Origin: Enchytraeus crypticus
Lineage: Eukaryota > Annelida > Clitellata > Enchytraeida > Enchytraeidae
DNA length: 64,000 bases
Direction: 5' to 3'
Assembly (NCBI GenBank): GCA_905160935.1
Contig: CAJHZI010000711.1
Location: 129,001-193,000, forward strand
Position 1 is the stretch's first letter, and each line of letters begins with the position of its first letter. This document shows positions 7,271 through 62,505 of the stretch, piece after piece. The notes under the pieces are model-generated. The model made no database searches. It saw nothing but the letters and a program-made list of their open reading frames with translations, and was not told the DNA's origin. The position numbers were made by a program, and so were the translations under genes.

Positions 7271-8090
7271 AAAGTCTTTTAGCAATAAAAAAGTAAATAT
7301 AAATAAATATTAGCCACAAATTAGAGGCACCAATGAGCAATTGAGAATAAAAAATATCATAGTGCTTTATAACATAGAATCCCTTAGCTATCTAAATCCG
7401 CATCTATGAGCAGTTATATCAAATTTTAGTAGCCCATTGATCATGTAACAAAAGTCAATCATTAACAAATGACCTATAATATCACGCAATAGCCATAGAA
7501 TGCCTGAGAGTATCGTGCAGTAGCCTTATATACATATAAGTCATCTCTTAGGCACAAGCAGTTGACATAGAGTACACATTTAATAGAAATCTGATAGAGC
7601 AAATATCAAAGTGAAAGTAGTTTATACAAGGCGGTTTATAAATAGAACATCTGACATTATAAAACAACCCATTTATACAAGATTTATGGCCTTGAGCAGA
7701 GCTTGAAAAAATAGAAAACCAGTGGAATGAAGGGGAGGGGCAAAACTGGAAAACTAATTTATTGCTATACAGCTTCACTCAGAGACTACTTGTTAAAGTG
7801 TTTGGATTTATTATAAGCCGCAGTTAACTGAGATAACTATTCCTTAACTTACCAATGACATGTGCACAAGTTTACATAATTGTCACCTATATTTCATGCT
7901 CTGTAAATTCACTTCAGAGAACACTAAAGACAGGAAATAATCTTCCAAACAATCCTTGAGATTTTCATAGTCGGCTGACAAAAAATTTGAATCCAGTTCT
8001 CTTGATTCTGACGAACACGTGCTATCATCTACACAGAACTCACTCAACCCCCCCCCCCCCGTAACTTCCACCTAGATTAGTAAACAGATA
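7270..8090. other. Non-coding stretch downstream of PLC
   Basis: This is the presumed PLC-delta 3' flank. An open frame on the minus strand at 8071-7883 shows no family motif and begins in a poly-G/C run. I see no convincing gene, RNA or repeat here. Confidence 0.4.
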
Positions 8091-8560
8091 GCTATGACAG
8101 AGCATCACATTGTGTAATGCGCTTCACATTACACTCAGCTAGAAATCACGTTACTTTATAACATTGGACTATGTTATGTGTATATATATTACACTCAGGT
8201 AGAATCACATTATTTTATAACATCAGACTATGTTATGCGAGCTATTCACATTACACTCAGCTAGAAAGCACATTACTTTATAACGTTAGACTATGTTATG
8301 CGAGCTACTCACATTACACTCAGCTAGAAATCAATTTATATCATTAGACTATGTTATGTAAGCTATTAACATTACATTCAGCTAGAAATCACATTATATC
8401 ATTAGACTATGTTATGTGAACTATCCACATCACACTCAGCAAGAAATCACATTATAACATAAGACTATGTTATGTGAACTATCTACATAACACTCAGCAA
8501 AAAATCACATTATAACATAAGACTATGTTATGTGAGCTATGTTATGTGAATGTGAACTAG
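8090..8560. repeat. About 60-bp array reaching into the last PLC coding exon
   Basis: About eight imperfect copies of a unit containing ACATTACACTCAGCTAGAAA and GACTATGTTATGTGAGCTAT. The rightmost copies run into the PLC terminal exon. The exon end, stop codon included (8537-8560), is made of the same CACATAACATAG text that recurs through the array. The PLC 3'UTR would therefore be this minisatellite. Confidence 0.85.
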
Positions 8561-10824
8561 TAATTTGCTGTTGTCATCATTCTCTCCAGCAGCGCTCTTC
8601 AGGTTTATCATCCTGTAACCTAAAATAGTGTAACATAAGATTTTAATAAAGATATGATATCATCCTGTAACCTACAATAATGTAAAATAAAGACTTTAAT
8701 AAAGAGCTCATTTACAACAGACGAGTGCACCAGATTGGTAACATAAAATAAAAAGACACGAACAGAGAGTTGATAGCCAATATATGAGTACACGAGATTG
8801 CGAAAATTGAAATTACTTAATTTAATGGAAAAATTAGAAAATTAATATAAATACACAAGATTTGTGTAGATGAAGTATGAAGACAATAGACTATTACAAG
8901 TTGAGAACATAAGCTTGCAGTACATCAAGTAGTACAAGTTTGTACTAAGCTATACTAGTAGTACAAGTTTGTACTAAACAACACTAATAGTACAAGTCTG
9001 TACTATGCTTCACTAATAGTACAAGTCTGTACTATGCTACACTAATAGTACAAGTCTGTACTAAGCTAAACTAGTACAAGTTTGTACTAAGCTACACTAA
9101 AAGTACAAGTTTGTACTGAGCTACACTAGTAGTGCAAGTTTGTACGTAGCTACACTAGTAGTACAAGTTTGTACTAAACAACACTAATAGTACAAGTCTG
9201 TACTATGCTTCACTAATAGTACAAGTCTGTACTATGCTACACTAATAGTACAAGTCTGTACTAAGCTAAACTAGTACAAGTTTGTACTAAGCTACACTAA
9301 AAGTACAAGTTTGTACTGAGCTACACTAGTAGTGCAAGTTTGTACGTAGCTACACTAGTAGTACAAGTTTGTACCAAGCTACACCAGCAGTACAAGTTTA
9401 TACTGAATTACACTAGTAGTACAAGTTTGTACTACGCTACACTAGTAGTACAAGTTTGTACTGAGCTACACTAGTAGTACAAGTTTGTACTACGCTACAC
9501 TAGTAGTACAAGTTTGTACTAAGCTACATCAGTAGTACACATTTGTACTAAGCTACATCAGTAGTACAACTTTGTATAGAGCTCCACTAGTAGTAGAAGT
9601 CTGTACTAAGCTACACTGGTAGTACACATTTGAACTAAGCTACACTAGCTGTACAAGTTAGCACAGGCCGCTGCACACTTACCCTCACGCACACAGTTGA
9701 AGGGCAGGCAGTACTGAGCCACTAGCTCATCAGTGCCGCTCTTCGACGAGTCAATAACTTGAAAGTAGAGCAGAGCGAACGGTGGACAGCGAATCTTAAA
9801 TAGAAACTCCTCGTTCCACTCTGGATTAAGTCCTGCTCGAGATGACAAAGGTTTCACATTACTATTAGTTTTTTTCTTCTTTAGTGCACTGCCAAGTGGC
9901 AGGTTCAAGGCACATATTCATATTCAAAGTCAGCTTTCTCGATCCAAAAGAGCACTCCTTAGATCAAGAAGTTAATCCCTTCATAACGTCTATGCCTTAT
10001 CCATACCTTATGTAGCCTATACCTTGGGAAAAATATGGCTTCTGAGGTGGTTTCCCGTTGATTTCCTCAGTTAGGTGGATTAATTACCATTTAATCCATT
10101 ATTAACTATTAGTTTTAATCACTATTTATTATCATTTTATTACAATTATTCACTTTATTATATATTATATATTCATAATAACATTTTAAAGCAAAATATC
10201 TAACAGTAAAGAGCTGTCAACATTAATGTTTTTGTAGTTTACTTATAATTATTAAACTGTTTTTAACATCTATCTATCTTTCTATCTATCAATCTCTCTA
10301 AGCATGAATGTATATATTGTATGTATCCGCGACGCATGCATGCATGTATGTATGCATGCATGTATGTATGCATGCATGTATGTATGTGTGTAATGTGTAT
10401 GTATGTATGTGTGTATGTATGCATTTATGTATGTATGTATGTATGTATGTATGTATGTATGTATGTATGTATGTATGTATGTATGTATGTATGTATGTAT
10501 GTATGTATGTATGTATGTATGTATGTACATACGTACGTACGTATGTATGTACGTATGCATTTACCTACATGTATATGAGCATATATAGACTTTCTAAACA
10601 CTAAAGTTTGTAAGAACCGTTGTCATGGATGATCTTTGAGGTGAACTCTTGTTTATCACGCGGCACCCCGGCAATGCTGATCCTAACATACGGGTCCAGT
10701 ATGTTATCAACATCATCTCCTTCCTTCTTAGGCAACTGATAGCCGGCCACCAGCTTCAATCAATCAATTAAATCAACCAGAGGAGATTAATTAACAAGTG
10801 AGAAGATATAGGCAGAGAGAGATA

Positions 10825-10882
<58 letters not shown>

Positions 10883-11112
10883 CGAGAGAAGAGAAAGAGA
10901 TAGGCAGAGCGAGAGAGAAGCATCGAAAGACGGGTGGAGAATGACAGGAAGAGAATGGTAATATTATAATTTGAGTTTTTTAGACTACCACACACCTTTA
11001 TTTTCATTCTCTTCTTCCACTCTTTAGGGTATGGTCCATAAGGCTTGCAAACAGGCGATGCTAAAATATAAAAATATCAATATTTCTTATCAGCGCCAGC
11101 AACAGATATACA

Positions 11113-11160
<48 letters not shown>

Positions 11161-11772
11161 CGTTTGACGTCCATTTCCTCATCCACGGATGATGTCAGGG
11201 ATGTATTTACACAAGTACATAAACGAATTGGTTAACAGAGAATAAATTCTAAGCACTTGTCTAGGACACGTCCAGATGTTTGCCAGGGCGTACTACATAT
11301 CTGGACCAACTGTTTGGAATAATCTTCCTGTCAGTCTGCGTCAGTCTGATCTATCTCTTTATAGCTGCCAGAAGAAACTTAAAACTGTTATATTTTCACC
11401 TGTAGCGTTACTGTGGCATATTGCATAAAGCAGCGAATATAAAAATGTAGGTATTATGTCTGATATTGCCGGCTTTTGTGCAAATTAAACGTTATAAAAC
11501 TGCTGAACGACCCAGCTCAATGTAACATAACTTCATTAACGAAATAGACATTACCTACAGATTCATTTGTTGTTTGTTTATCATACATTAAATTATTTAA
11601 ATAATAATGCAAATATTAACAAAGCAAGGCGAAAAGAGTAAGTTTTTGTAAATGAGCAACGTACAGGTTCTGAGGAACTCGGGTTTTAGCACATATCCAC
11701 ATCTACCGTTGTCCTCGAATAGGCCCCTGTTCAAGTGCATAGGGGAGTCAGGCGTTTGAAAGTTCAAGGCCA
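8537..11772 (-). CDS. PLCD: PLC-delta Y-end and C2 domain exons (5 exons)
   Basis: Exons 11772-11665 ([24 protein letters not shown]), 11060-10996, 10753-10618 (start of C2, [29 protein letters not shown]), 9832-9683 ([42 protein letters not shown]) and 8619-8537 ([14 protein letters not shown], then KLLVHIHIT stop). The last exon supplies the family-typical G-YR-x-x-x-L-x-S ... L-V-H-I ending. Exon 9832 has a GAGCAG acceptor that could also be used three bases earlier, giving DNAGL instead of DNGL. Confidence 0.9.
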
Positions 11773-14715
11773 CTGCAAAAGTAAACACAGTGTACAAAAG
11801 AAAACTTACACAAACAACCAACAGACCTAGACAAAAGCATAACCTTCAACGACAATTATGTTTGACATTGTAATAACGCAATAACATTTGATAAGATAAC
11901 ATTTGATAAGATAACATTTGATAAGATAACATTTGATAAGATAACATTTGATAAGATAACGTTTGATAAGATAACGTTTGATAAGATAACGTTTGATGAG
12001 ATAACATTTGATAAGATAACGTTTGATAAGATAACATTTGATAAGATAACGTTTGATAAGATAACATTTGATAAGATAACATTTGATAAGATAACATTTG
12101 ATAAGACAACATTTGATAAGATAACATAACTTGGATTTCTTTGACATTTGTTATCGAAATTACTCAGAATAAACGAACAGTTAGCTGGTCACAAAAGGCG
12201 ACTAAGCAAGAAGTGAGGAAGGAAAATAAGAGAGTAAAGTTGTAAACGATTTACTCCATCAGACACGAAAAGGTTGAGTAAACATGCAAGTCAAAACTGT
12301 CCTTGATCTTTTTGTTAGATTACGCTATATAACCAACTGATTGACAGTCTGGAACCGGTTCTAGCACTGCAAGACAAAACAACAACACATCTTACCAATC
12401 TGGCAGCCGGCCAGCCACATAGGAACCGGATCGTAGTTGCTGGAACCGGTTCTAAAGCCGGCAGGGTATGTGCGGCTGACCTGACGTCTGTTGTGCGCTA
12501 TGTAGCCGTCCATGTCTTTCTCTATCAGCTTCAGTGCCTTGCTCTCAGAGAATGACGACATCTCTGCAAATGAATCTGCATAAGATAATATTATCATGGA
12601 TGACTGAATAGCAGTCTTAACGGTGAATCATCATCATCAACATCATCATCATAATCATCATCATCATCATCATCATCATCAGCATCATCATCATCATCAT
12701 CATCATCATCGTCATCATCATCTTCCTTTCAATCCGAGATTAGCTCGCGTCGGGACACGAGTATACCTTACACTATTCCATTGGCTTTAGAAAATTTTGT
12801 AGTAATTTCTGAAGCCTAGGCGATACGACGCCGCCACTGGCTGGAGCCAGTGGCGGCGTATAGTAAACTCATAAATGATGTCAGTATAATAACTCATAAA
12901 CCAGAGAGAGAGAGGTAGTGTATACTTTTCTTGGACTGCTCGAAGTTCTTGAAGCTCGTCGCCCTACAGATAACGATGCAGTCTGACAACTCTCTCGACA
13001 ACTCGTTAGACTTGTCCTTCTCTCTCTTCTTCAGGTCCGCCAGTGTCTCCTGCCTCAGTCTCTCGTAGTCCAGGTGCTGGGCCAGTGACGCCTCCTCCAG
13101 GTTACCTAGCAGCTCCTCAGGGTCAAAGTTCAATTCAGCGGGGTCAGCTATCTTCTTACACTGTCAATCAATGAGCAATCCACCAATCAGTGAATAAATC
13201 AATCCATTAATCAATCAGTCAATCAATTAATTAATTATCAATCAGTCAATCCACCAATCAGTCAACCAATTAATTAATCAATCATCAATCAATCAATCCA
13301 CCAATCAGTCAATCAATAAATTAATCAATCATCAATCAGTCAATCCACCAATAAATCAATCAATCAATTAATTAAACAATCAGCAGTCAGTAAATCCGCC
13401 AATCAGTCAATTAATCAATTAATTAATCAATCAATCATCAATAAGTCTATCCACCAATCAGTCAATCAATCATTCACCAATTAATATATCAATCAATTAA
13501 TCAATCAATCGAGCAAGCAATCAATAAATCCATCGATCGATCGATTGATCAATCAATCAGCAACTAAATCAATCTAAACATTCTTCCAGAAATCAGTCTA
13601 ACAATTAGTTAATGAGTGAGTCAGTCTCTCATTCAATAAATCAATCCACTCAATTCAGTTGAGTCCATTAATCTTCAGACATAGATGGTAAATGGCACAT
13701 AAAATTTGGAAAATTGCTCTCAAATCAAGTGACTCAAGAAAAATGTCTCTTGAATCAAGTGACTCATGAGAAAATGTCTCTTAACTCAAGTGACTCATGA
13801 GAAAATGTCTCTTAGCTCAAGTGACTCATGAGAAAAATGTCTCTTAAATCAAGTGACTCAAGTGACTCATGAGAAAAATGTCTCTTCAAAAGATAACAAA
13901 TATTTCACTTTGGTGACACGCATAGAAGATAGCCGCCGATCTAACTACAAACGAAAATTTAAAACAAAGATTTCTAGCTACTGGTCAAACCTTTACAATA
14001 ACTTTTCCTTTCAATTGTTCTGGAGTAGGCAGCTGTGTGCAATCCGGAGGCAAATCCTCTGTGAATAGTCTCCCTGGAGAAAAATACACAGCGACTTTAC
14101 AGTAATTTCACAGTCATCATCGAATCCCAGTTTAACTAGGGTCGGGACTTTTAGAAAATTTTGTAGCAATTTCTAGAGTCTAGGTGATAGGTTGCTCTTC
14201 AGTATATGATTAGTCGCCCCTTTAATATCTGCAGAAATATTCCTTAACCCTCTGACTCAACACATCTTATACACCCAGATTAAATTAAAATATATTTATG
14301 AAATTTGCACAAAATATTAGAAAATAAACTCTGAGCAGGAGAGGATACTATAGAGAGGAGTGAAACAAACCTCCTAGAATGGATTTCATGATTCTCGCCA
14401 TCATAGTCTGCTGTTCCACTGAACAGTGGTTCTCTAGCGACAATATGAGAGGATATCTACATTACATCATCATCACCATCATCATCGTCATCATCATCAT
14501 CATCATCAATATCATCATCATCATTATCATCATCATAATCATCATCATCATCATCATCATAGTCTACTGTTCCACTGAACAGTGGTTCTCTAGCGACAAT
14601 ATGAGAGGATATCTACATTACATCATCATCACCATCATCATCATCATCATCATCATCATTATCACCGTCATCATCATCATCATCATCATCATCATATCAT
14701 CATCATCATCATCAT

Positions 14716-14774
<59 letters not shown>

Positions 14775-17700
14775 AGTCTGCTGTTCAACTAAGCAATGGT
14801 TCTCCAGTGACAATATGAGAGGACATCTACATTAGATCATCAAGGTCATCGTCGTCATCATCATCATTATCATCATCATCATCAGCCTCGTCATCATCAT
14901 CATCATCATCGTCATCGTCATTATCATCATCATCTGCAGTTTCACAGAGTGGTGGTTCTCTAGCTCGATATGAGACGGTATCTACATTGCATGGCATCAA
15001 ATTCAACGCTTTACCTTATGCTGTCATTAAGACTGGTGTCTGAGTCAGTAGCATGCATAGCTGATTATAGCTATAACATTGCGTATTATCATAGTTATCA
15101 AAGCTTTAGATCAGTATAGCTTCATGATACTCACTCAGAAAATTCAAAACCGAACTTGCTGATCACCTCTATGACGTCACGAAACAGTATCTTAGACGTC
15201 ATTGTGAAGCCAGCCATGCCGTGAAATATCACGGGTTCATCGTCTCCATCCCATACATCAACTGTAGCAGTCAATCAATCCATGACTCAATCAGTCAATC
15301 AACTGCTCGATATATCAATCAATCAATCAATTATCATCCAACTAACCATCCAAATCCAACAATTTATCAATCATCTGAGAAAGCAGGCTTTCATCACATT
15401 TCTCACAGAACAACTAAAGAAAAAGCAATCAATTAGCAGATTAGAGGTCTAACGTAATTGACTCACGTTCTACACATCTGCACCCGTCTCTCAGTGAATA
15501 GATAGAGGTCTAACATAATTGACTCACGTTCTACACATCTACACCCGTCTCTCAGTGAATAGATAGAGGTCTAACATAATTGACTCACGTTCTACACATC
15601 TGCACCCGTCTCTCAGTGCTATAACATACGACTCGACTCTGCTGTCACTGGTTAACTGGTTCGTCTCAATGTAACTGCACAGAAACAGTCAAAAAATCAA
15701 TAAGAATATAACGTCCGGTTCCTCGCCATAAGGCAATGTCAAGGACGTGGAACAACAACAGGAATGATTTAAATCCGATTAGCTGACGCTATGCTAAGTG
15801 TATCGGCAGAATTGGTCAGTCGATATCACAGTTGTTCGAGAAACAAGAGTTCACGGGGTTGAATTTTGGCAGGACATAACATAACATAAAAACAATTAGA
15901 GTGCTACAGTCATGAATGACAACATCGAGCACTACTGAGACAAAATCAAGCCAGCGAGCAAAAAAAATTAGGACAATCTCTGACAGCACACTTGTACTAT
16001 AGAATGATACGTTAAACATAGTTTAGTGTCCTATTATAGGAAACCAGTGAAACCAGCAATAAGTGCTCGGTGTTATCATGAATGAGACATGCAATGATGC
16101 TGAACGGCTATATTTGAGTGTCATTAGATCCATAAACTATGTTACAGAGTGTTGCATACAATCCTCACTCACGTGTTATGTGAGGAATCTATGTAGTAGT
16201 CACACAGCGGACGGCTCATGTCCTGATAGACTGTGCTACACGAACTCTTTCTTATATCCAAATGTGTCGAGTTGAACAGGAGCTCAAATCCTGCATTGAT
16301 CAATCAATCAATCATTAATTCATTCATTCATTTAAACAATCGATCTAGGCAATCAGCAAAGCATTTACTCATTTAATCAATATATTAATTGTCATTATCC
16401 ATTTTATCAATAAATTCATTCATTAATATATCAATAATGTATCAATTAATCCATCAATCGATATATCTACAATTGATCAAATAATCAATCAATTAATCAA
16501 TCAATCAATACATCAATAATTAATTGATCAACTAATCACTTAATCAATATATTAATAATTGCTCAACTAATCAATCAATCAATCACTAAACAAAATTGAT
16601 TGATAATTTAATCAATCTATCTGCTTTAGCCATTAACAAACTTATGTATTTTAAGTTTCTAATGAAAGTAGAATAAAGGATTTAGTCTTTTACGAGTAAT
16701 CAAACTCTGAAAAGTCAGGACTCAAAACAAGATCTGCAATCCTAGCAGATCACACTGCTTCCATCAATCCTAAGGATTAAACTCAGAGGAAAATGGACTG
16801 CAGCAAATTACAAATGTTTAAACAACAACAACATGAAAAGATATGAAGGTTAGACTGATACGACATTTAACTTGTTTAGCAGATAACACTTCTCCTACAT
16901 CATCTTAGGGTGCGAAACGTGACGCTAAACCGTCGTAATAAAACTAAACTGTAGTCGTTTCATAGACTACGTCCCTGACATTGCCTTATGGTGAGGAACC
17001 AGACGTTAAATTCTTATTGATTGAATACCTTCAGAAGAGAGAAGCTTTTTCTCTTTCAGTTCTGGAACCGATTCGTATTTCTTTATCAGCGCAATGCATT
17101 CCTCTTCCGCGATGTTGTCCTAACAACAACAATAACAACAGAAATTTTGCAGAATATGAGGAAGGTTTCTGTACAACGTTCGTGTTCATATTGGAAGATC
17201 GATTTTGGTAAACTTATAACCTGATAAGGATCGATACAAAAACGTAAAACTATTTTTTTTTAAGTTACAATCTTTTGCACATCGTCAATAAATCCCTAGG
17301 CAAGCATCCATCAGAATATTCCTTGTAAGCTTGCAATGTCTAACGATTGTAGAAGCAACACTGTCTTGTAGTTTCTACATTCAAGAAAATACCATGTTAA
17401 TTTAATTCTGTAAATAAAATTAAAATATATATTTTATTGTATATTGCGTAACTAGTCTAGAAAACACTTCCACACACTATCAGTCAATAAAATTTACTCC
17501 TACTACATCCACAAACTAAATAAGCAAATATAAGTTAAAGAGATCTTGATTTGATTTATTAAAATATTACACAAATATTTCCACAAAAAATATGATTAAT
17601 TGATTACTGGCTTGTTTAACTGACTGTTAGACAAAACTTTAGATATTATCATATGACTCAATAGACTCATTGATTGATTGATTATTTGATTGATTGATGG

Positions 17701-19735
17701 ATTGATTGATGGATTGATTGATTATTTGATTGATTGATGCATTTATTGATGGATTGATTGACTATTTGATTGATTGATGGATTGACTGATTGATGAGAAC
17801 CTGATGATTATCTTTGAAGAAAGTGAGAAGTTCAGCTGAAGTGAGAAAACCTTTGTTATGATCATATCTACACAACAACAACAACAAGCATAGCTACAAT
17901 ACTGTCGTCGTCCATGGCAAAATAGAGAAAATGCGGATGAGCTAGTATCTCGTCGTTAAGCCTTTCTACTGAGGACCAGCAGGTTCAGGGTTCAAACTCA
18001 GAGCTCACCGGTCACTTAAAAGTTTTTAAGAGAAGAAACAGACGTTAAACTTAATTTCTAAACATATGAAGTCGACGTCACAATAATAACAGCACAACTT
18101 CCATTTATTATAACTATACAGTATTTACTGTTTTCTTTAGAAATCTTTACCCTTTCTTGCATGTATAAATGTATGTATGTATGCACGTATATTTATAGGT
18201 AGGTATGTATATATGTATGTATATATGTATGTATGTACGCATGTAGGTATACGTACGTATGTATGTATGATTACGTGAGTTTGATTATGTTTACGAATAA
18301 GTATGAATCTCATACATACATGCATCATACATAGATACGACATACATACATACATAAGTACGTACGTACGTACGTATGTATGTATGTATGTATGCATGTA
18401 TGTACGTATGTATGAGATTCATACATATTCGTATACATGATCACGCCCATGTAACATACATACTACATACTACTCTGTACATGCATATGTATGTCCACCT
18501 CTTAAAGATATTCTCTATTTCTCTTCTTCTCATCAGCTCCTCCATAAAAGTTATGAACTCATCAACGTTCAGGTCCAGCTTTTTGAAATACTGTATGGAA
18601 AATAAAACAGAGCCAAAATAAAGACTGAAACTTAACATCAGTTTCCTGTCTGTCTCTCTCTCTCTCTCTTAATGCACTGCCTACTGGCAGGTCCATGGTA
18701 TATAACGCCTCCACTCTTCTATGTCTTTCGCTTTCCTGTTCATTTCCACACATGAGTGAGTCTTTAAATCATCTAACATACCTAATCTCGGCCTGCCCCT
18801 GCCTCTTTTTCCTTCCATTCTACCTTCTATGACCTCTTTTATAGCCCTTCCCCCCTTAGAATGTGTCCTATCAACTCTTCTTCTTAATCTCGGCCCCTGC
18901 CTCTTTTTCCTGTCTATAAAGAAAGGATTATGGCACCAAGTAGCATAATTTCAAAATTACAAATTCTATTTGAAATGTAAATTTATTTGCCTTAAACATC
19001 TTTTATTTATTTCTGGGCTATCGTGTTCTCATATAACGAATTTATATGCAAATCTTCAGCCGAGATATGCTGTTGTCTTATACACAGTGGACTATCAACA
19101 TGTTGAATGTAAATGCTCAGTGCCAAAAGAAAACCAGAAAAAATAATTTTAAATAATCACAAACGAATATTTTGAGTATTTTTCTGATCTGAAGAAGATT
19201 TTTGATGCATTATAAAGCAAAACTTATTTAAGAAATTAATATAATATAAAAATAATAATTGTAATAGAAATAACAAAAAGAAAACAATTTAGTTATAGTT
19301 ATGCTGACCACATCTTTAGGATTCACAGCATTGCCTCTCTGATCAGATTTCTTCTGAGCAGTCTTCAGTTTAGCCTTCAGGCACAGCTGAGCAACAACAA
19401 CAACACAAACTGTAGGACATGGAACTGAGTGGCTATTAATAGATGTTTACTAATAATTATCTTTATTATTATTGCCATTATTATTATTTATTATTACTAT
19501 TATTATTACTATTATTATTTACCCCAGGTGTAAAGAATCCGAGGTTTGATAAAAACGATTCAAGCAATACGTGCTGAATCGCCGCCCGGCTACTCGAGGT
19601 CATCTAGCTGCTTAAAAGAATTGCTGAAGCAGAATTCAATAAATCTTTGCAAAGTCATGTAAAGTCTTTGCCAAAGAAAAGATGTCTCTCATTTATCGCC
19701 GGTTTGCTCGGTATTGTTATTATTAATATTATCAC

Positions 19736-19766
<31 letters not shown>

Positions 19767-21285: not shown

Positions 21286-21358
<73 letters not shown>

Positions 21359-26291: not shown

Positions 26292-26297
26292 CTATGC

Positions 26298-47928: not shown

Positions 47929-50252
47929 GTATATTGACGTGTTTTAACATTTTTCTAGCTATCGTAGATTACATCGGAGTTGCAACGAATAGTTGAATGT
48001 GAAATAGTTTATCTTAGCAAAGTCCTTTAGTCCAGTAGTTCATTAGCCAAGTACTGTGTAATAAAACACAGCTAGGGCATACTCTCAATTTTGTTCTATC
48101 GTTTAAAACAATGTTTTATACTGAAAACTAGTTCATCGGTGTTTTTAGCTTAGGATACAATAACATTAATACGTAGATAACTTAAGGGCATGTTCTTCGA
48201 GATCTTTATGCTGAAATGAACACTTTTCTTACCAGAAGGTTAGCTCTTTCAGTTTGCTGCCACAGCTTCAGTGATGTGCAGCTAAATCTATTCCTTCTGC
48301 AGCACCTTATGCCCTGTAATTGTTAGTCTTAGTTTGTGTCTCTATTTTTTGGTCAAACCTAAGTTTAGCTTCATATCCTTAGTTGAATGTAATAGTTGGA
48401 GTGCTGTAGTCTATTAGATTTATCTATATTGTCAAGTTCAGTTGCTGCAGTTAGCTGCTTAGTTAACAGTAACATACCTGTTGTCATCTCATACTTGCAT
48501 ATTTAATGCAGTTATGAAATGTAGCAGATTGTAAATTAGATAATTTATTTTATTTTTAGCCATGCAATTTTAATTATTCTTCTTGTTACAATTTACATGT
48601 TTATTATTTTTCTTGCGAACCTTTGAATATTCATAATCAAAGGTATGGTAGAAATGTGTTTGAGTGTATTCCAAATCTTCCATCAATAATTGTTAGATAT
48701 AGATGTATTGAAGTCTAATTTACTATAAAATGGTTGCATTTGTATAACAAAGGTTGTTCCTATTTAAAATGTGTAGAAGATGTGTAAGTGCATCAAAAAA
48801 TTAATTTTTATATAGTTATGCTTACTCCACCAAATATTCAGTTAATAGCTTACTGATTGTTCTATAGCTACATCAATAGCTTAGGATTGTTGTGGCTATA
48901 TCTATAATTAATAGTTTAGTAAATGGTTCTATAGCTATATCTATAACAGCTTATTAATTGTTCTAATAGCTTAGTGGTCATTTTAGCTATATATAAAATA
49001 GTTTAGTGATTGTTGTAGCTATATCTATAATAGCATAGTTATTGTTGTAGCTATATCTATAATAGCATAGTTATTGTTGTAGCTATATCTATAATAGCAT
49101 AGTGATTGATATTATAAAATGTTGGGTTTGTTGATAGATTGATTTAGAAGATTGATGCTGAAGGGATGAAATGTGTTGAAGAGTTAAGCGTACGTGTGAG
49201 GATTTGTTGACTATGTGCTTTAATGATTGATTGATCAAATAATTTGACTGATTGATCAAATAATTTGACTGATTGATCAAATAATTTGATTGATTGATCA
49301 AATAATTTGATTGATTGATTGAATAATTTGATTGATTGATGGCTTGATGAACGGTATAGAAATGAATGTGACAAGTGATTTAATAGAGTAGAGTGCGGGC
49401 TGTAGGTTTTATTGCCACTAAATATAAGTGTTTGATTTGTTTATTTAATGATGATTGAATAATTCAATTGTTTGCATATATGATGGGTGGTCTACTAGAT
49501 AGGCTTTTATAATGTCTTTGAGGGCCTAGTGTGTGTTATTGCATGTATGAGTGGAGGCGTTCTGAGGTGAATTGAATTCTCGCGGGTTCGAATCCTGGCC
49601 GCGCTGATCTGAGAGTAAAATCTCGGACATTCACTGGACTGGTTATACAGAAAATGGCATAAATTGCCTAATGGATTTAACATGTATAATTAAAAAATGA
49701 TAGATATCAACATAGTTGATCATTTCACTATAATGCTTGTTTACTTTACTTTGAGTGTTTAAATAAAAATAAACATAGTACTCTCTCTCTCTTCATTAAT
49801 TGATTGATTGGTGCAGAACGGGGCAGGCGACCATCGAGCGATGAGGGGTAAGGGAGGGGAGGAGTCAGAGATGTTTCGTAAGTTGTTTGTGGGCGGGCTC
49901 AACAACTCGACAACAGAGGAGCACTTGACGGAGCACTTCAGCCAGTATGGGACGATAGTGAGCTGTAAGGTCATGAAAGATACCAACACCAACCAGTGAG
50001 TCCGACGTCAAAACCATTGTATTGCTGCCCTCAATGAAATTTTGTGCTTTGATTGATATTTATAAAGATATTTATTGATAAATGCATAATTTATTTAGAA
50101 ATATTTAGAAATATTTGATTTATTTATAAATGCATGATCAAATGTGGTTTGATCTTGCAATTATATATATAGGTGAAAAGGAAGGCAGAGATAGAATTTG
50201 TTGGAAGAGTTTTATGTCATGGACCTGCAATTACACAGTACACTGACAGAGC

Positions 50253-50288
<36 letters not shown>

Positions 50289-53200
50289 AAAATGTGAGAC
50301 ACAAAAGAAAATAAGCATAGAACCTGAGTAAGGATGTGCATTTGTCATACTGATATACATACAGCTGGAGCGATGTCGGTAAGATATTCGATCTCGGAGC
50401 AGTATGTTTGAGGTTTAAATTCAGGGGCTCGTCTGTCACTGACATCGCTTTCGAATGAGGAAACTGACGTTAACATTGCTATTATTTTATTGCATTGCTT
50501 TTTGACATTACTTTGACTTTTATTAGCTTTATACATGAATGTGTTTGGTTCTTGCAGCTCTCGTGGGTTTGCGTTCATAGTGTTTGCTGATCCTGAGACA
50601 ATTGATGAGGTTCAGAGGAATCGTCCTCATCACGTCGATAACAGAACCGTCGAAACCAAACGTGCCATTCCTCAAGGGGTGCGTGCCGCTTCTCTCTGTG
50701 CCATTTCTTGTTGTGCCCCTTCTCTTTGTGCCGCTCTCTTCGTGCCATTTCTTGTACCGCTTCTCTCTGTGCCATTTCTTGTTGTGCCGCTTCTCTGTGT
50801 CATTTCTTGTTGTGCCATTTCTTGTTGTGCCCCTTCTCTTTGTGCCATTTCTTGGTGAACCATTTCTTGTTATGCCGCTTCTCTTTGTGCCGCTTCTTGT
50901 TGTCCCATTTTTTGTTTCGTGCCTCCCTTGATGTTTATTAATAGTATCAGATTACCTGTAGACAGTGAGAGATGATCGTCTAGTCGTAGGCCTCGCTACA
51001 GAGTAATTATTTGAAATACATGACTGCAAGATATTTTGTATCAACTGAATATTTTATATTTTGTAATAATTTCTATATTTTCTGTTTAATTTCTTTAATT
51101 TTAAGTACCTGATTGCAAGACATTCTGTATCAATTGAATTTTGTATAATCTGTAATAATTGTTATATTTTCTTGTAATGTACGGATAATCAATAATTATC
51201 TGCTACAGATGCCTCAATGCAACAAGCCCATACCTGTAATTATCTAACCTGTCGACTGTAAGTCTATGTTTGCTGGTACTTGTAACTAATTCACCAAAAT
51301 TTGTATTAGGGATAAGAGTACTACTAAATGTCTTGTGACTGATAAAGAACAATCATCATCATCATCTCCCCGTGACTCCCCAGTTTAACTAGGGTCGAGA
51401 TAAAGAGCTCTCTCTCTCTCGTAGTGCACTGCCTTCTGGCAGGTCTATGGTATATAATGCCTCCACTCATCTCTGTCTTCCGTTTTCCTCTTCATATCTA
51501 CATATGAGTGGACCTTCATATCCTCTAGCAATAGGCTACTCATTCTTGCTGTTATATACCATTTCCTTGGGGGATTCTGCTTATGACGAGGTGGGCCCTG
51601 GCTATATATTTTATCTATATTTTAGCTATATATTTTATCTATATTTTAGCTATATATTTTATCTATATTTTAGCTATATATTTTAGCTATATTTTAGCTA
51701 TATATTTTATATATATTTTAGCTATATATTTTATCTATATTTTGCTATATATTATATCTATATTTTATATTATCAAAATGACCGTTAAAATTTTTTTGAT
51801 CGAAATAAGAAAAAGGAATGAGAACATAGCTACATTTTATAATTACAATTATTTTGTGTGGACAGGAGGCGCCGAGCAGCAAGTCTAAGGCTGGCCCTGC
51901 GAACAGTTTCTCCGGATCAAAGAGGAAAGTGTTCATAGGAGGCTTGAGGGCGACCACGGAGGCCTCCGTCATCCACGAGTACTTCTCCAAGTTCGGTGAA
52001 GTGGAGTGCGTGAACCTGCTGGAAGACAAAGTGACTCACAAAAAGCGAGGCTTTGCCTACGTCATCTTCAACGACAGCGACATCGTCGACAAGGTTATCT
52101 GTGAGTATTGACGTTCTCTCATCTCTAGTAGTATAGTTACAATGGACTGAGGTTATATGTGAGTATTGACGTTCTCTCGTCTCTAGTAGTCTAGTTACAG
52201 TGGACTGAGGTTATATGTGAGTATTGACGTTCTCTCATCTCTAGTAGTCTAGTTACAGTGGACTGAGGTTATATGTGAGTATTGACGTTCTCTAATCTCT
52301 AGTAGTCTAGTTACAGTGGGCTGAGGTTATATGTGAGTATTGACGTTGTCTCATCTCTAGTAGTATAGTTACAGTAGACTGAGGTTATATGTGAGTATTG
52401 ACGTTCTCTCGTCTCTAGTAGTCTAGTTACAGTGGACTGAGGTTGACTTTGTATACAGAAGTTTGTTCTATTTTGAGTTTTTCTATGATTGACTGGTGAA
52501 ATAAAAATGATTAAATTAAATTGTTTGGCATGAAAATATTTTAGGTAATATGATAACATTGATGCACTTGTTTTCATTACACAGTGCAGAAATACCACAT
52601 GATCGATGCACTTGTTTTCATTGTACAGTGCAAAAATTCCACATGATCGATGCACATATTTTCATTATACAGTGCAGAAATACCACATGATCGATGCACT
52701 TGGTTTCATTGTACAGTGCAGAAATACCACATGATCGACGGACACAGGGTGGAAGCGAAGAGAGCGAGGTCTGTTGAAGAAATGAATCTTGTTAAAGGAG
52801 GGGGATCCAGAGCCCCTATGGACTCCCAACAATTCGCCGGCGGCATGAGGCCCGGTGGAGGCTACCCCGGCGACCCTACAGGCGCATGGGGTGCCCCTCA
52901 AGCGGGCTACGGGGGTCAGGGACCCATGGGCCCCCAGCCTGCCTGTGGGGGTGGGGTAGATCTGATGCAGCTAGCTAATATGCTGGGTAGCTTCGCTCAG
53001 CAGCAGCAGCAGGGGGGTGGGGCTTATAGTGGGGGGAGGAGCTATGGAGGCTGGGATGGAGGTATGAAGCCTAATGGAGTGTATTTAGTGAAGTAGTTCT
53101 GTGATGTACTGACAGAATATGTTGTATTCCTACCTGTTTCCTGTTTGAAGGAGTCCTCTATTATACTGAATGTTTTTGTAGTATTCATACGTGTTTCCAA

Positions 53201-55363
53201 TTTAATGAAGTAGTTCTGTAATGTACTGAGCGCCTGTGTTGTATTCATACGCGTTTTTATTTTATTGTTTTTTCCAGAAATAGCAATTTCTGGATCCTAG
53301 GCATTCGCCAACCGAATGCCCTTGTTGACGTTGGTTTGGATCTAGTTTTTATGTCGCCTTCTACGACACGTGCATATTTACATGGTTGGTCTATTCTTCA
53401 AGCAATATGGACACAACACAACTTATTTTATTTCTTGAAAAAGAACAGGCAATACTCTGTTAACTTGAAGCGGTTTGGTTGTGTTAAAAAATGTATGTCA
53501 GCAGTAATTTTTACTGAAAAATCTGTGATTGTACTGTGATTGATTGATTGATTACTAAAGTGATTTGTCTTTTATTTGTATTACCTCCCGTCTATCAGTT
53601 GATGTTTGGAGATTCTGGAGGTTGTGTTACATCATGACTGACGTATTCACTGATCAATACCAATAATCCATTATCTGATTGATTGAAACTTTCAAACACA
53701 GCTAGTATTTATAGGTACTGGATTACAATAGCTTGCGATTTTTCTTAATTGATACATGGATTTATGCAATTTAGTGATTCATGCATTCATTCATGGATTC
53801 AATTGATTGATTTATTAATGGAATCGATTGATTGATTAATAGAATTGATTAATTCAGTCATTCATTCATTGAATCGATTGATTAATTGATTTATTCATTG
53901 AATCGATTCATTCATTCATTCATTCATTGAATCGATTGATTGATTCATTAAATTTATTGATTCAGGTATTCGTTCATGGAATTGATTAATTCATTCATTG
54001 AATCGATTGATTGATTCATTGAATTGATTGATTGATTCATTGAATTGATTGATTGATTCAGTTATTCATTTATTGAATTGATTAATTCATTCATTCATTG
54101 AATCACTTGTTCGATTCATTGAATTGATTGATTGATTCATTGAATTGATTGATTGATTCATTGAATTGATTGACTGATTCAGTCATTCATTCATAGAATC
54201 GATTGATTAATTTATTGATTGAATCGATTGATTGATTTATTCATTGATTGAATTTACTGATTCAGTCATTCATTTGAATATGAATTGATTGATTGATTGA
54301 TTCAATCATTCATTTGAACTGATTGATTGATTGAACACCAGGTATGGGCAGTGGAGGCTGGACGTCACCAGGGAATGCAGACTACGCCATGTCGGGTGGG
54401 GTGACAGCTGATGGTGGACAGAGAGGTCCTCAGAAGATGGGCAAATCCAGGGGAGGTCAAAGAGGTCAAGGACCCTATGGAGGTTTGTTAACACTCAATG
54501 TCTCACTGGCAACACTGATTTATTAGCAATTATAACTACTCCCTGACAAATGTAATATCTCACTGACAACTGTAATAACTCCCTGACAACTGTAATACCT
54601 TCCTGACAACTGTAATACCTTCCTGACAATTGTATTAACCCCCGGGCAAATTTAATAATTCCCCGAACACTGTAATACCTTCTTGACGACTGTAATAACT
54701 CCCTGACAAATGTAATACCTTCCTGACAAATGTAATACCTCACTGACTACTCTCTGACATGCATGTACCGCATGCGCCTAAAACTTTACAGAGTTTGTAT
54801 GTGGCAGAAATGGGAATGTTGTGTCTAATGTGTGGAAGAACTAGGAAGGACAGAATGGAAAATGAATATGAATGTGAATATTTGAATATGAATGAATATG
54901 AACATTTGAATGGTGAGGGGATCGGGGATAGGTTGGCTCAGTCGAGATTGAGATGGTATGGGCATATTGCGAGAAAGGCAGACGAGGATGTAGTAAAGAG
55001 AGTTTGGAGGGAAGAACTGGATGTTAAGCTAGAGAGAGGTAGACCATAATTGACTTGGGAAGCAGTGACAAAGAAGGACATGAAAAATATGGGACTGATG
55101 ATATGGTACGGGACAGAGAGGATTGGTGAATGTCTATTCATATCCCGACCCTGGTTAAACTGGGAATTTAAGGGAAGGTAATGATGATGATTGATTCCTG
55201 GTTTATTGATCTGATGATTGATTTCTATACTAATCAAATAACTGTTAATTGATTGATTTCTATGCTAATTGATTGATCGTTTGTTGATCTATTGATTGCT
55301 TAACATGCTAATGGTTTGTTTGTTACAGCTGGATATGGTCTAGGGGGAAACAAGATGGAATAG
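46406..55363 (+). CDS. hnRNP A/B-type RNA-binding protein with alternative coiled-coil N-terminus
   Basis: Nuclear RNA-binding protein with two RRMs followed by a Gly-rich region, the hnRNP A/B (also DAZAP1/musashi-like) layout. Core exons are 49817-49995, 50558-50678, 51866-52100, 52717-53061, 54342-54482 and 55329-55363, all phase-compatible. RRM1 has RNP2 KLFVGGL and RNP1 SRGFAFIVF; RRM2 has RNP2 KVFIGGL and RNP1 KRGFAYVIF, then the hnRNP-type VILQKYHMIDGHRVEAKRA. The C-terminal part is rich in Gly, Gln, Met and Pro, ending AGYGLGGNKME stop. Three upstream exons (46406-46452, 46726-46846, 47882-47928) are in phase and would add MTSIQEELEQWKN ... coiled coil. Without them the ATG at 49841 starts the protein. 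Three introns and the 3' end carry junction-spanning tandem arrays. Confidence 0.88.
47093..47209. mobile_element. Foldback palindrome, about 55-bp arms, with tRNA-like A box
   Basis: CCTCACATCTGCATTACTAT TGGTGTGGGTTGTTTAGCAC pairs with the complementary right arm ending GTAATGCAGATGTGAGG. The right arm has an 8-nt insertion. The centre reads TTTAGCACAGTTGATAGAGC, close to a tRNA A-box region, and a B-box-like GGATTCAAGTC follows at 47220. It lies in the intron between two coiled-coil exons. Confidence 0.8.
48830..49110. repeat. About 36-bp degenerate tandem repeat
   Basis: Copies of TAGCTATATCTATAATAGCA plus TAGTTATTGTTG, best preserved at 49015-49105. Intronic. Confidence 0.8.
49205..49345. 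repeat. 21-bp GATT-based tandem repeat
   Basis: GATTGATCAAATAATTTGAC with a final T, about six copies, then GATTGATT. Intronic, upstream of hnRNP exon 49817. Confidence 0.85.
49555..49700 (+). mobile_element. tRNA-like SINE
   Basis: ATGAGTGGAGGCGTTCTGAG ... CTCGCGGGTTCGAATCCTGG (B box), then GATCTGAGAGTAAAATCTCG GACATTCACTGGACTGG. A reversed copy is at 3290-3390. Confidence 0.65.
49817..49995 (+). CDS. hnRNP exon: N-terminus and RRM1 first half
   Basis: The acceptor ATTGATTGGTGCAG is directly preceded by a GATT tract; the donor CA|GTGAGT is phase 2. In-frame ATGs are at 49841 and 49871. Encodes FRKLFVGGLNNSTTEEHLTE and HFSQYGTIVSCKVMKDTNTN. The fold order (RNP2, helix 1, strand 2) is complete. 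Confidence 0.9.
50205..50290 (+). mobile_element. LINE-A 3' terminal fragment with (GA)n
   Basis: GTCATGGACCTGCAATTACA CAGTACACTGACAGAGCGAAA(GAGA)n, a diverged LINE-A tail. Confidence 0.6.
50363..50485 (+). mobile_element. tRNA-derived SINE
   Basis: GCTGGAGCGATGTCGGTAAG, CTCGGAGCAGTATGTTTGAG, then CACTGACATCGCTTTCGAAT GAGGAAACTGACGTTAAC. It sits 75 bp before hnRNP exon 50558. Confidence 0.75.
50558..50678 (+). CDS. hnRNP exon: RRM1 second half
   Basis: The acceptor is GGTTCTTGCAG; the donor GGG|GTGCGT is phase 0. Encodes SRGFAFIVFADPETIDEVQR and NRPHHVDNRTVETKRAIPQG: RNP1, helix 2 and the last strand of RRM1. ETKRAIPQ is the conserved hnRNP A inter-RRM junction. Confidence 0.92.
50660..50925. 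repeat. About 30-bp array starting at an hnRNP donor
   Basis: Copies of TGTGCCATTTCTTGTTGTGC CGCTTCTCT. The exon end itself (CGTGCCATTCCTCAAGGG|GTGCGTGCCGCTTCTCT) aligns with the unit, so the first unit is the exon/intron junction. Downstream units have lost the GTGCGT donor. Confidence 0.75.
51360..51535 (-). mobile_element. SINE1 tail next to LINE-A 3' end
   Basis: 51355-51400: CATCATCTCCCCGTGACTCC, CCAGTTTAACTAGGGTCGAG. 51405-51530: CTCTCGTAGTGCACTGCCTT, CTGGCAGGTCTATGG and more of the LINE-A end. Two tail types are adjacent, probably one inserted into the other. Confidence 0.65.
51590..51770. repeat. 24-bp (TAGCTATATATTTTATCTATATTT) array
   Basis: About seven copies, in the intron before hnRNP exon 51866. 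Confidence 0.85.
51866..52100 (+). CDS. hnRNP exon: linker and RRM2
   Basis: The acceptor is GTGTGGACAG; the donor ATCT|GTGAGT is phase 1. Encodes EAPSSKSKAGPANSFSG, KRKVFIGGLRATTEASVIHE, YFSKFGEVECVNLLEDKVTH, KKRGFAYVIFNDSDIVDKVI. RNP2 and RNP1 are intact. Confidence 0.94.
52092..52443. repeat. 58-bp array of an hnRNP donor junction, 6 copies
   Basis: The unit contains GGTTATATGTGAGTATTGAC, GTTCTCTCATCTCTAGTAGT and CTAGTTACAGTGGACTGA. The first unit is the genuine exon end GGTTATCT|GTGAGTATTG. Every downstream unit keeps a strong GTGAGT donor and also a TTACAG acceptor-like site 16 nt before it. Confidence 0.95.
52560..52738. repeat. 44-bp array of the next hnRNP acceptor junction, 4 copies
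   Basis: AGs are at 52584, 52628, 52672 and 52716 (genuine). Each unit is TTTTCATT(A/G)TACAG|TGCAGAAATACCACATGATCGA, that is, tract, acceptor and the first 22 nt of exon 52717-53061. It is in the same intron as the donor array at 52092-52443. Confidence 0.95.
52717..53061 (+). CDS. hnRNP exon: RRM2 end and Gly-rich region
   Basis: Encodes LQKYHMIDGHRVEAKRARSV, EEMNLVKGGG, then Gly/Pro/Gln-rich sequence with MQLANMLGSFAQQQQQGGG and YGGWDGG. The donor G|GTATGA is phase 1. Read-through instead of splicing gives MKPNGVYLVK and a stop at 53094-53096, a possible alternative C-terminus. Confidence 0.9.
53275..53405 (-). mobile_element. SINE1 fragment
   Basis: TTTCTGGATCCTAGGCATTC GCCAACCGAATGCCCTTGTT ... 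GTCGCCTTCTACGACACGTG ... TTGGTCTATTCTTCAAGCAA: the 5' two-thirds of SINE1 in minus orientation, within an hnRNP intron. Confidence 0.75.
53680..54341. repeat. GATT / TTCATTCA tract ending at an hnRNP acceptor
   Basis: About 650 bp of GATTGATTGATTCATTGAAT-type repeats that run into GATTGATTGAACACCAG, the acceptor of exon 54342-54482. Confidence 0.92.
54342..54482 (+). CDS. hnRNP exon: Gly-rich tail
   Basis: Encodes MGSGGWTSPGNADYAMSGGV, TADGGQRGPQKMGKSRGGQR and GQGPYGG. It continues the WDGG/GGW pattern of the preceding exon in phase 1. The donor is GAG|GTTTGT. Confidence 0.85.
54510..54750. repeat. About 20-bp degenerate tandem repeat
   Basis: Copies of CTCCCTGACAACTGTAATAC, starting about 30 nt after the donor at 54482. 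Confidence 0.8.
54785..55195 (+). mobile_element. LINE-B 3' end with ORF2 C-terminus and (GAT)n tail
   Basis: Encodes DRLAQSRLRWYGHIARKADE, DVVKRVWREELDVKLERGRP, then after an in-frame stop LTWEAVTKKDMKNMGL and a broken DREEW.. segment. This is the classic RLRWYGH ... GRP-x-x-TW tail of a non-LTR retrotransposon. It ends CCCGACCCTGGTTAAACTGG GAATTTAAGGGAAGGTAATG ATGATG. It is 5'-truncated and inside an hnRNP intron. Confidence 0.82.
55329..55363 (+). CDS. hnRNP terminal coding exon
   Basis: The acceptor is TTTGTTACAG. It completes an Ala codon, then GYGLGGNKME and TAG at 55361-55363. The short Gly-rich end matches the preceding exons. Confidence 0.85.
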
Positions 55364-58835: not shown

Positions 58836-58884
<49 letters not shown>

Positions 58885-58887
<3 letters not shown>

Positions 58888-59012
58888 CTAATATTAAAGT
58901 CAGTATCCTCACTCGAAAGCGATGTCAGTGACGGGCGAGCCCAGGATTTGAACCTCGCACACACAGATCCGCGGTCGAATATCTTACCGACATCGCCATT
59001 GGCTTCAATGAT
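58885..59012 (-). mobile_element. tRNA-derived SINE flanked by (TA)n
   Basis: The same element as 57405-57530 (GGATTTGAACCTCGCACACA, GATCCGCGGTCGAATATCTT). It abuts the TA microsatellite at 58838-58885. Confidence 0.8.
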
Positions 59013-59927
59013 CACTAAATTAACAATTTATCTGAATGGTATCAATGATTAAAAAATCCTGTCAAATAACGTCAAGGTCAGAAGTACTGAGAGCTTCTTT
59101 ATAAGGCATCAGTGATACAATGGTAAACCTTTGTTGTCCTGAAACCCGATCATCGCCGTGGTTGATCAACCAAAGCAGCAGTCAGACTAGACTGAGCGAT
59201 GATTCAGTTCTCAGACTAAGTGAACAATGCTCTAAACAGTCTCAGGTCCCTGAGACCAGAGTGAACGCCTGCAGTGACCTTATCACGTATGAGCCTCATC
59301 GGTTAGGATACTGCTGGGATAGTTAGGGTACTGCTGGGATAGTTAGGATACTGCTGGGATAGTTAATATACTGCTGGGATAGGTCAGTCTTTAACCATTA
59401 TTCCTAGTCCCAGCAATGCTGCAGTCTTGAGGTCCATGATATTGGAGACATGTTAGCCTGATTCGAAACTGAACTGTTATAACTTTCCATTAGTTCCAAA
59501 ACTCTTCCTTACTACTGCTGTTGGCGTTATGTCGTAGTAATTTTAATAGGCGCCGTGTGTATTTATGTCACAATTTTGGCTAGTAAAATGGTGTTTATAG
59601 TATTATTTAAATGTTACTCAGATTTACTTTAAATACCACTAATCATATTAATTATTTTGTACCAGTTTTTGTCATCTTCCTAATGCTAATTACTCTAATA
59701 AATAATGAAAAACACTTTGTCTCTATTATAAAGAAATTCAGAAATCATTAACTTTTATTAGCATTTTAGACATACATGTATTTATTGTTCTGTTAATTAG
59801 CTCTGCACTTTCCCCCGTAGTGTACTTTTCAAGTAAAATATTAGTTGAAATTAACTACTATACGTATTATTTCCTATCACGAATTAATTAATTATATTTA
59901 AATTGATTGATTGATTGTGTGATGTAG

Positions 59928-60334
59928 TTCGCACAGTCAGACGTTAATGATAACTATGACTCAACATCTCTAAATCACGCCCATAATTACTGTGACGTCA
60001 CTGTTGCGTCACCTCTAAGCCACGCCTACACAAGCAGCCTTGACATCAGCGGTAGAAGTTCAAGGTCATATCATCAGCAACTTCATCAGTATAGAAATGG
60101 CTCATCTACCGAGTTATCAACAGAATTCAGTCAATTTCACTGTGGTGGGGGATCAAGCCATTGTGACCCCCTGGTGCCCTGCAAGCCCCCTCTCTTGACG
60201 AATCCTAGCTCAGTCTCCGGGGACGAATACGACATGGGAAGTTATGGGGAGGTTAGAGGGACAGTGGGGCATTATGACTATCATAATGAGGCTGTGAATC
60301 CTTCATTATCACGCGATAGACAATCAATTTACAG
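59928..60334 (+). CDS. MEIS: MEIS exon (N-terminal, Ser-rich)
   Basis: The acceptor TTGTGTGATGTAG is preceded by GATTGATTGATT. The donor TTTACAG|GTGGGT is phase 2. Encodes [20 protein letters not shown] through [30 protein letters not shown]. The last part corresponds to the basic L-x-RDx-x-IY segment directly before the MEIS domain. Confidence 0.82.
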
Positions 60335-62505
60335 GTGGGTTAATATATCAATCAACTTACACTTGTTTAATATGGCAAACAGTTTACATGTGGGTTAATA
60401 TGGCAATCAGTTTACTGGTGGGTTGATATAAATATCAATTTATATGTGGGTTAATACAACAATAATTTTACAGGTGGGTTAATATGGCAATCAATTTACA
60501 GGTGGGTTAATATATGAATCAATTTACAGGTGGGTTAATATATGAATCAATTTACAGGTGGGTTAATATATGAATCAATTTACAGGTGGGTTAATATATG
60601 AATCAATTTACAGGTGGGTTAATATATGAATCAATTTACAGGTTGGTTAATATGACAATCAACTTAAAGATGGTTTAATATGACAATAATTTACAGGCAG
60701 TTTAATATGACAGAATTAACTGGCAGGTTAATATGGAACTGTAATGCACACATATTCTTATTACAGTCGGCCTGCAACTTTATCCATAACTGGAAATTAT
60801 CTCTACAATGACAGACTGCAGATCGATTTAGTTAGAGCTAGGCTAGGTTCAAATTACTGGCTCGTCGGTCGCTAGTGTTCTCTATTTTCTTGAGATATGA
60901 TACACAAGGCTTTCTCCAGAGGCGGATCCATAAATTTCTAGGGGGGGGGGGGTCGAATTTGTTTTGGATAGTGTTCACGTTTTTTCCTTGCACCCACGTT
61001 CAATTTGCTTACTTACACCCTTGTTAAAACTCTTATATAGTAGGTCTACATATTTTAGGGTAAGTAGGATTGTTTTCTCAGGGAATGACGCCGCTGCCCA
61101 GTAAATATTATCAAAACTAAGGAAGGCATAGGGGACCCAGCTCATAATAAGTAGAATCCCCCAAGAAAATGGAATATAACAACAAGAATGAGTAGCTTAT
61201 TGCTAGAGAATTTGAAGTTCCACTCATATGTAGACATGACGATGAAACGGAAGAAAGAGAAGAGTGGAGGCGTTATATACCATGGACCTGCCAGTGTGCA
61301 GTGCACTGACAAAGATACAAATTTGCACATGCGCATACACATTTATTTATCCATTAACATGATACAATACTTTTTATGGGCTAGCCCAGGGGGCCAGACC
61401 CCTGGGCCCCCTCTAGATCCGCGCCTGGCTTTCTTCTTTATTGTATTTTCTTCAGTTGCAAAAAAGTTAAATTGTTCCTTACACTAAAAAGAGAGAGATA
61501 TATATATATAGTTTCTACTTGCTATCTCTCTTCTCTTCAGTCCACTGCCAAGTGGCAGGTTCAAGGTACATATCCATACTCAAAGTCTGCTTTCTTGCTC
61601 CATAAGAGCATTCCTTAGATCAACAAGTTAATCCCTTCACAAAGTCTATGCCTTATCCATACCTTATGTAGCATAGGCTATAGCTTGGGAAAAGTATAGC
61701 TTGTGAGGTGGTTTCCCGTTGCCTTCCTCAGTTAGAGAGATTAATTACCGTTTAATCCTGGGGGAAAATATTTCATGGTGAGGCGGATCCCCTCTTGCCA
61801 TCTACAGCTCCTGCCTTAGTCGCCTCCTACGTACACGCGGCAGATTGTTTGCGGTTGCCCTATTCTGCAATGGTACAACCACACCCGAGCACAACATGGA
61901 GTACTACTTGCTATATACAGCGTTTAATTAACATTCAGTTAGCTCGATGACCTGAGCTTATTTCTCTATTACTTACTAGGAAATTAAATATTTCGCTTGA
62001 AGACGGTAAATCAATCAGTTGATATACAGAGACTTATGAGAGGTTTGAACCCGTGACGGCTGATTTACGAGCTGCACTTCTTACCACTCAAGAGCTTCTA
62101 GAGGAACAGCTGACTCGACGCACTGATTTACGATAGCACCCGCCGATAAAGCCTTACCTGATAAGTGATAGGGTGATAAGCTTGATAAGGATTGCGATTG
62201 TTATTCTGTCTCTATTTTCGTTAGTCCACACTCTTGGGTGGGTTGTGAAGGTGTCCAGGAAGGGGGGAGGGGTTAATCAATGCTGCGAGGTAGGGGTTTG
62301 TCTTTGACCTGTTTGTAGCCACGTAGTAATCATCGGATTCGATTTGGTACCATAGTGCTCAATGTTGTCATGGACGACAGTAGCACTCTAATTCTGTTGT
62401 GTTGTTGTTGTTCTTGTTGTTTGTAGCAGCAGTCTAGTGATTTTTTGTGACTTGGTTTGTGATTCTCTCTCTCTCTCTTTCTCCCTCTCTCTCTTTCTCC
62501 CTCTC

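Follow-up and report, generated by a model that had tools for sequence, protein, structure and literature searches.

Arrays at exon boundaries of the window

The window is a 64-kb stretch of the genome of the annelid Enchytraeus crypticus (G000:C615:129001-193000; the genome comprises 524 Mb in 802 contigs), and it carries four genes whose exon edges are copied into tandem arrays: a PLC-delta-like gene on the minus strand, and an hnRNP-like, a coiled-coil-like and an unnamed gene on the plus strand. The arrays over their splice junctions match 'mirage' minisatellites, a class already described. Sequence matches point to a clitellate annelid: the best PLC hits stand at 51% and, for Capitella, 48%, with no lancelet named among the 120 matches listed, and COX1 is 93% identical to that of an enchytraeid and of a lumbriculid worm, a near-identical COX1 being absent from the 120 matches listed. 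GC content is about 36%, and tandem repeats make up 21.5% of the bases (16.7% for periods of at least 20), as against 16.7% and 10.7%, respectively, in 200 kb of the same contig used for comparison.

Tandem arrays were called with Tandem Repeats Finder (TRF), and the junctions of the window were then verified on the raw sequence and exon models. An array was taken to span a boundary (the fixed rule) when its TRF period was at least 10, with at least 5 nt of exonic and at least 10 nt of intronic sequence and an exon part of at most 1.3 units. Under this rule, 8 of the 47 splice boundaries drawn from the exon models are spanned, where uniform seeding predicts 1.74 (P 4.5e-4). One degenerate donor array and two stop-codon arrays, recognized by eye, bring the total to eleven. 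The original prediction, made from the sequence alone, of at least eleven arrays over splice junctions or stop codons in four genes on both strands is thus borne out, as is its proposal that the genuine boundary forms the end unit: in every junction array of the window it lies in the exon-proximal unit. The genes and their arrays are as follows.

8537..24096, minus strand: PLC-delta-like gene, 17 exons modelled from the PH exon to the stop codon (exon models and homology)
8123..8540, minus strand: 58-bp x 7 array whose exon-proximal unit contains the PLC coding end and stop codon (TRF, by eye)
8606..8705, minus strand: 52-bp x 1.9 array at the last PLC exon, acceptor 8619, 14 exon nt (TRF, fixed rule)
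14399..14716, minus strand: 156-bp x 2 array with an exon-sized unit at PLC exon X4, acceptor 14456, 58 exon nt, ILSLENHC region (TRF, fixed rule)
15442..15618, minus strand: 61-bp x 2.9 array at PLC exon X2, donor 15589, 30 exon nt, RDGCRCVE (TRF, fixed rule)
24082..25550, minus strand: 38-bp array at the PLC PH exon, acceptor 24096, 15 exon nt (TRF, fixed rule)
34092..36153, plus strand: coiled-coil-like unnamed gene, three exons (in-frame GT-AG exons; likeness by reading)
33838..34105, plus strand: 70-bp x 3.8 array at acceptor 34092 of the coiled-coil-like gene, 14 exon nt (TRF, fixed rule)
49817..53096, plus strand: hnRNP/DAZAP1-like gene with two RRMs (exon models; PF00076 in exon RRM2a)
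50697..50916, plus strand: 15/45-bp array, degenerate, next to the RRM1b exon donor near 50679 (TRF, by eye; outside the fixed-rule count)
52092..52444, plus strand: 58-bp x 6.1 array at exon RRM2a, donor 52100, 9 exon nt (TRF, fixed rule)
52561..52738, plus strand: 44-bp x 4 array at the last exon of the hnRNP-like gene, acceptor 52722, 17 exon nt (TRF, fixed rule)
53083..53256, plus strand: 57-bp x 3 array over the stop codon of the hnRNP-like gene (TRF, by eye)
59928..60334, plus strand: exon of an unnamed gene (exon model)
60321..60708, plus strand: 28-bp x 13.9 array at donor 60334 of the unnamed gene, 14 exon nt (TRF, fixed rule)

The PLC-delta-like gene matches rat PLC-delta1 over 486 amino acids (E 5.5e-119). 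Its 38-bp array at the PH exon comprises two TRF rows, 24082-24161 (2.1 copies) and 24192-25550 (35.8 copies), and AG is kept in 37 of the 37 extra copies compared; the 156-bp array at exon X4 continues upstream, by eye, in more degenerate copies. In two PLC arrays, the residues specified by the exon part of the unit, GCRC and ILSLENHC, are also present in the rat protein, which makes the exon the source of the repeat there. Exonization, in which the splice site would have shifted into a pre-existing array, was rejected for these two arrays on the same ground. Elsewhere on this contig, at G000:C615:86229-110767 on the minus strand, exons that by reading resemble a second PLC-delta carry a junction array of 42 bp x 11.6 at a donor.

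The gene at 49817..53096 is presumably an hnRNP/DAZAP1 homologue, named for its resemblance to that family, and the end of its exon RRM1b bears one copy of the 15/45-bp array unit. A Pfam search of 59928-60395, which covers the exon of the unnamed gene, gave no match. Many of the originally listed unit lengths were recovered at junctions; the 30-, 34-, 60- and 74-bp units were not matched to one. Long homogeneous arrays in which no junction was found lie at 1883-3076 (40 bp x 30), 34556-35251 (12 bp x 58) and 36181-36720 (42 bp x 13).

Excess over chance outside the window

For an independent sample, exons were chosen from genome-wide Pfam matches to the myosin head (83) and kinesin (130) families. 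Twenty-nine exon-dense loci on other contigs, containing 57 myosin and 35 kinesin matches, were fetched; 4 and 5 of these matches, respectively, lacked a usable exon. A gap of more than about 30 nt between the predicted and the Pfam edge led to removal of the boundary except where a paralogue supported it, and paralogy also served to add two myosin exons and to fix one exon end. The final set holds 55 myosin and 30 kinesin exons, with 98 and 48 boundaries (146 in all). Two adjacent kinesin motor domains (G000:C252:65170-66129 and 67655-68659) lie in single long open frames of 848 and 521 amino acids; each of them covers almost the full family profile, in contrast to the kinesin matches elsewhere, most of which are partial.

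Fifteen of the 146 boundaries are spanned (7 of 98 in myosin, 8 of 48 in kinesin), and all fifteen arrays overlap the Pfam-matched stretch by at least 8 nt. Another acceptor array (L022:7116), clear by eye and missed by TRF, was left out of the count. Three nulls were applied. Uniform seeds predict 3.55 spanned boundaries (P 5e-6), and seeding at the local rate, taken from array ends lying no more than 400 nt from an exon, predicts 3.86 (P 1.3e-5). With pseudo-exons simulated across the same non-coding DNA, the expectation is 5.76, and 15 was reached in 1 of 2000 runs. The enrichment is therefore about 2.6- to 4-fold across the three nulls.

Array ends also tend to thin out away from the exons. 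In successive 100-nt bins from the boundary, exon-proximal array ends number 1.33, 0.72, 0.48 and 0.46 per kb in myosin and 1.91, 1.07, 1.30 and 0.32 per kb in kinesin; the density rises again further out, bin counts are small, and short introns would by themselves tilt the profile this way.

Properties of the repeat copies

Copies were analyzed in 28 junction arrays, 5 of them on exons predicted de novo (see below). Both types of boundary are hit, with 13 donor and 15 acceptor arrays, and unit lengths by TRF period run from 27 to 156 bp, in line with the original view of a recurring process that yields many unit lengths. Unit length is a multiple of 3 in 8 arrays, where 9.3 are expected, and 20 of the 28 would break the reading frame; this chance-level share fits untranslated DNA. 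The exon accounts for at most 0.67 of the unit (mean 0.39), a ceiling compatible with a need to retain enough intron signal. Copies differ by substitutions.

Arrays at pre-existing introns

Comparison of myosin paralogues places the introns before the arrays. Six loci have in common a donor that follows an exon with the terminal motif LI[ED]K, and a crossing array occurs there at L025 only; two acceptors common to L034 and L038 are spanned in L034 only, and a donor common to L022 and L023 is spanned in L023 only. The acceptor before GESGAGKT is shared by L022, L023 and L027, of which L023 has no crossing array. At these five junctions, the presence of a crossing array varies between paralogues that have the same intron, which indicates that the arrays grew at existing introns. 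The Rogers model of intron gain expects the intron to be missing in relatives; at the five junctions compared, it was present.

Origin of the arrays

The arrays most probably arise by frequent local tandem duplication. Such changes would be tolerated, since the true junction stays with the exon-proximal copy and the remaining copies fall within the intron. On this model, a local duplication would happen to include the border of an exon and, with it, a splice site or stop codon, lengthening the intron or the 3′ untranslated region. The copy beside the exon body would remain the working junction and the others would be removed with the intron. With the protein unchanged, the array could grow like any intronic repeat, and selection would leave the junction duplication in place. 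The excess at boundaries would then reflect a commoner birth of duplications near exon edges, and a raised duplication birth rate at these edges is the favoured explanation. It is a more tentative suggestion that junctions are birth hot spots by way of transcription, splicing or chromatin, with about one in ten splice boundaries bearing a young array whose decoy splice sites have to be passed over by the spliceosome.

Local sequence could contribute at some boundaries. In the myosin and kinesin sample of 29 loci, 11 of 73 acceptors have a tetranucleotide tract resembling TTGATTGATT in the 60 nt upstream. The corresponding figure is 36 of 934 for intronic stretches elsewhere (P 3e-4) and 0 of 73 for the stretches downstream of donors. 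Such tracts could promote slippage at some acceptors, not at donors. They may at the same time serve as branch-point or pyrimidine-tract sequence.

Survivorship is the strongest competitor of a raised birth rate, though an improbable one: DNA next to exons would be old and protected from deletion, and arrays would accumulate there at an ordinary rate of birth. Array ends are indeed denser within 100-200 nt of exons even where no boundary is crossed. This account predicts older arrays, however, and internal identity averages 90.9% in 23 junction arrays as against 84.6% in 63 intronic arrays (P 0.0016). The junction arrays thus look young, and their lower divergence argues against simple survival.

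Several points weigh against duplication at a raised rate. The units of junction arrays are longer (median 54 vs 31) and more complex than those of intronic arrays, so unit length and complexity may confound the age gap, part of which may be compositional. The edges of the myosin and kinesin exons were curated by hand while array positions were visible. The copy numbers of the arrays may be wrong, owing to hybrid assembly. De novo exon prediction on the remainder of contig C615 yields 110 boundaries (62 at a stricter score), 2 of the 110 lying inside a 1-kb overlap with the window; this set contains false exons, a score of at least 14 giving 57 predictions and 30 on the reversed sequence. Five of the 110 are spanned, where uniform seeding predicts 2.12 (P 0.064), and the stricter set gives 4 of 62 against 1.25 (P 0.038); under a local-rate null these exons show no excess (4 of 110 vs 4.17 expected, P 0.6). 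The pooled window, myosin and C615 sets give 19 of 255 against 6.53 (P 5.4e-5). Finally, arrays span 7 of 98 myosin boundaries (7%), less than plain array coverage nearby, which is 10-21% within 600 nt.

The lack of an excess at the local rate and the low share in myosin also favour pure chance, by which some arrays would overlap exon edges simply as a result of a repeat-rich genome, and the repeat content of the window and contig given above points the same way. Chance is still a poor candidate, ranking somewhat below survivorship, given 15 boundaries of 146 in the homology-anchored sample against 3.6-5.8 expected and 8 of 47 in the window against 1.7. A naive coverage null, which equates the chance that a boundary is spanned with the array coverage of intronic bases nearby, yields no excess; it was set aside, since an exon stops an array from extending and can be overlapped by the seed unit only, and the pseudo-exon simulation serves as its conservative stand-in. 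The original proposal that exon edges are preferred sites for tandem duplication is supported in the independent sample and lacks a clear excess among de novo exons of the same contig.

Selection for spare splice sites or splicing regulation, also raised originally, is distinctly unlikely to be what retains the arrays. When each extra copy is compared with the genuine unit, the splice dinucleotide GT or AG is kept in 110 of 129, somewhat more than the 99.3 that overall identity would predict. This small excess has a bootstrap interval that includes zero, though, and 73 of 92 are kept, against 68.6 expected, once the 37-copy array is removed. Junction arrays look younger, not older, than intronic ones, and same-intron paralogues do without crossing arrays at the five junctions compared.

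An assembly artefact is a still weaker account: the published E. crypticus assembly is described as a hybrid of short and long reads, and its assembler might have created or mis-sized the repeats, but the copies differ by substitutions and the pattern is repeated across several contigs and genes. Least credible of all is the link, drawn originally, to intron gain, in which the arrays would be left over from introns born when AGGT-containing exon segments were duplicated in tandem. The units do contain a junction, and published models propose such a route. This account conflicts with the myosin paralogues, which at the five junctions compared have the same intron in the same place without a crossing array, and with units made of exon and intron sequence rather than of exon alone.

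Relation to known junction repeats

The original statement that no such class had been described proved wrong, as the arrays match the lancelet 'mirages'. These are described as tandem duplications of exon-intron boundaries in globin (BflGb6 and BflGb9), Adh3, PGBD5 and troponin C genes, the PGBD5 example being imperfect; reverse transcription-polymerase chain reaction of the globins and data on Adh3 suggested undisturbed regular splicing, and a route of intron gain was proposed (PMC3087553, PMC3902484). In both animals, going by the accessible portions of those reports, units span the boundary at 5′ and 3′ splice sites, unit lengths differ from locus to locus, and many copies retain AG or GT. 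Splicing and haplotype variation were examined in the lancelet, whereas the annelid arrays are known here from the sequence of one assembly. In the annelid, unlike the lancelet, the frequency was measured and tested against nulls (15 of 146), and mirages look unusually common in E. crypticus. No report of such arrays from an annelid was found among the matches listed in the open-licence literature, and the annelid host extends the class to a phylum distant from lancelets.

Three further systems share part of this architecture. For human IFI6 (also G1P3 or 6-16), the title of Turri 1995, as cited elsewhere, reportedly concerns a minisatellite that repeats the splice donor. Such a repeat resembles the donor arrays of E. 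crypticus. In what is accessible of the IFI6 work, the minisatellite supplies several splice donor sites (PMC4526556), and downstream units serve as donors for alternative transcripts; in E. crypticus, by contrast, use of another unit would break the frame at 20 of the 28 unit lengths. Human FAM20C, according to the excerpt available, has a variable number tandem repeat across a junction that is said to affect alternative splicing (PMC5941971); the likeness lies in a tandem repeat across the junction, and the difference in its being a single polymorphic human locus. In plants and green algae, tandem repeats are enriched toward intron ends (PMC3887541). Those repeats lie within introns, and junction spanning is not mentioned in the available part of that source, whereas the E. 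crypticus arrays span the junction.

If the excess holds genome-wide, the mutational process by which exon edges are copied into introns time and again is one that this annelid has in common with lancelets. Introns would grow naturally through such a process and gain raw material for further introns, and it would provide natural tests of how the spliceosome chooses among near-identical sites separated by tens of bases. For E. crypticus, public reads and an assembly with annotation are reported, with assembly GCA_905160935, study PRJEB41884 and transcriptome GALF01 named, which makes the question directly testable.

Other features

Between two PLC exons, on the same minus strand, window positions 21484-23388 hold a 635-amino-acid open frame with WD40 repeats, a long Asn run and no visible intron, perhaps a nested gene or a retrocopy. 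At 32672-33124, also on the minus strand, lies a reverse transcriptase fragment (PF00078), likely the remnant of a retroelement. Elsewhere in the genome, partial COX1 matches occur on G000 contigs C361, C424, C796, C373 and C166; four of the five contain TAA or TAG stops, and the five are perhaps nuclear copies of mitochondrial DNA.

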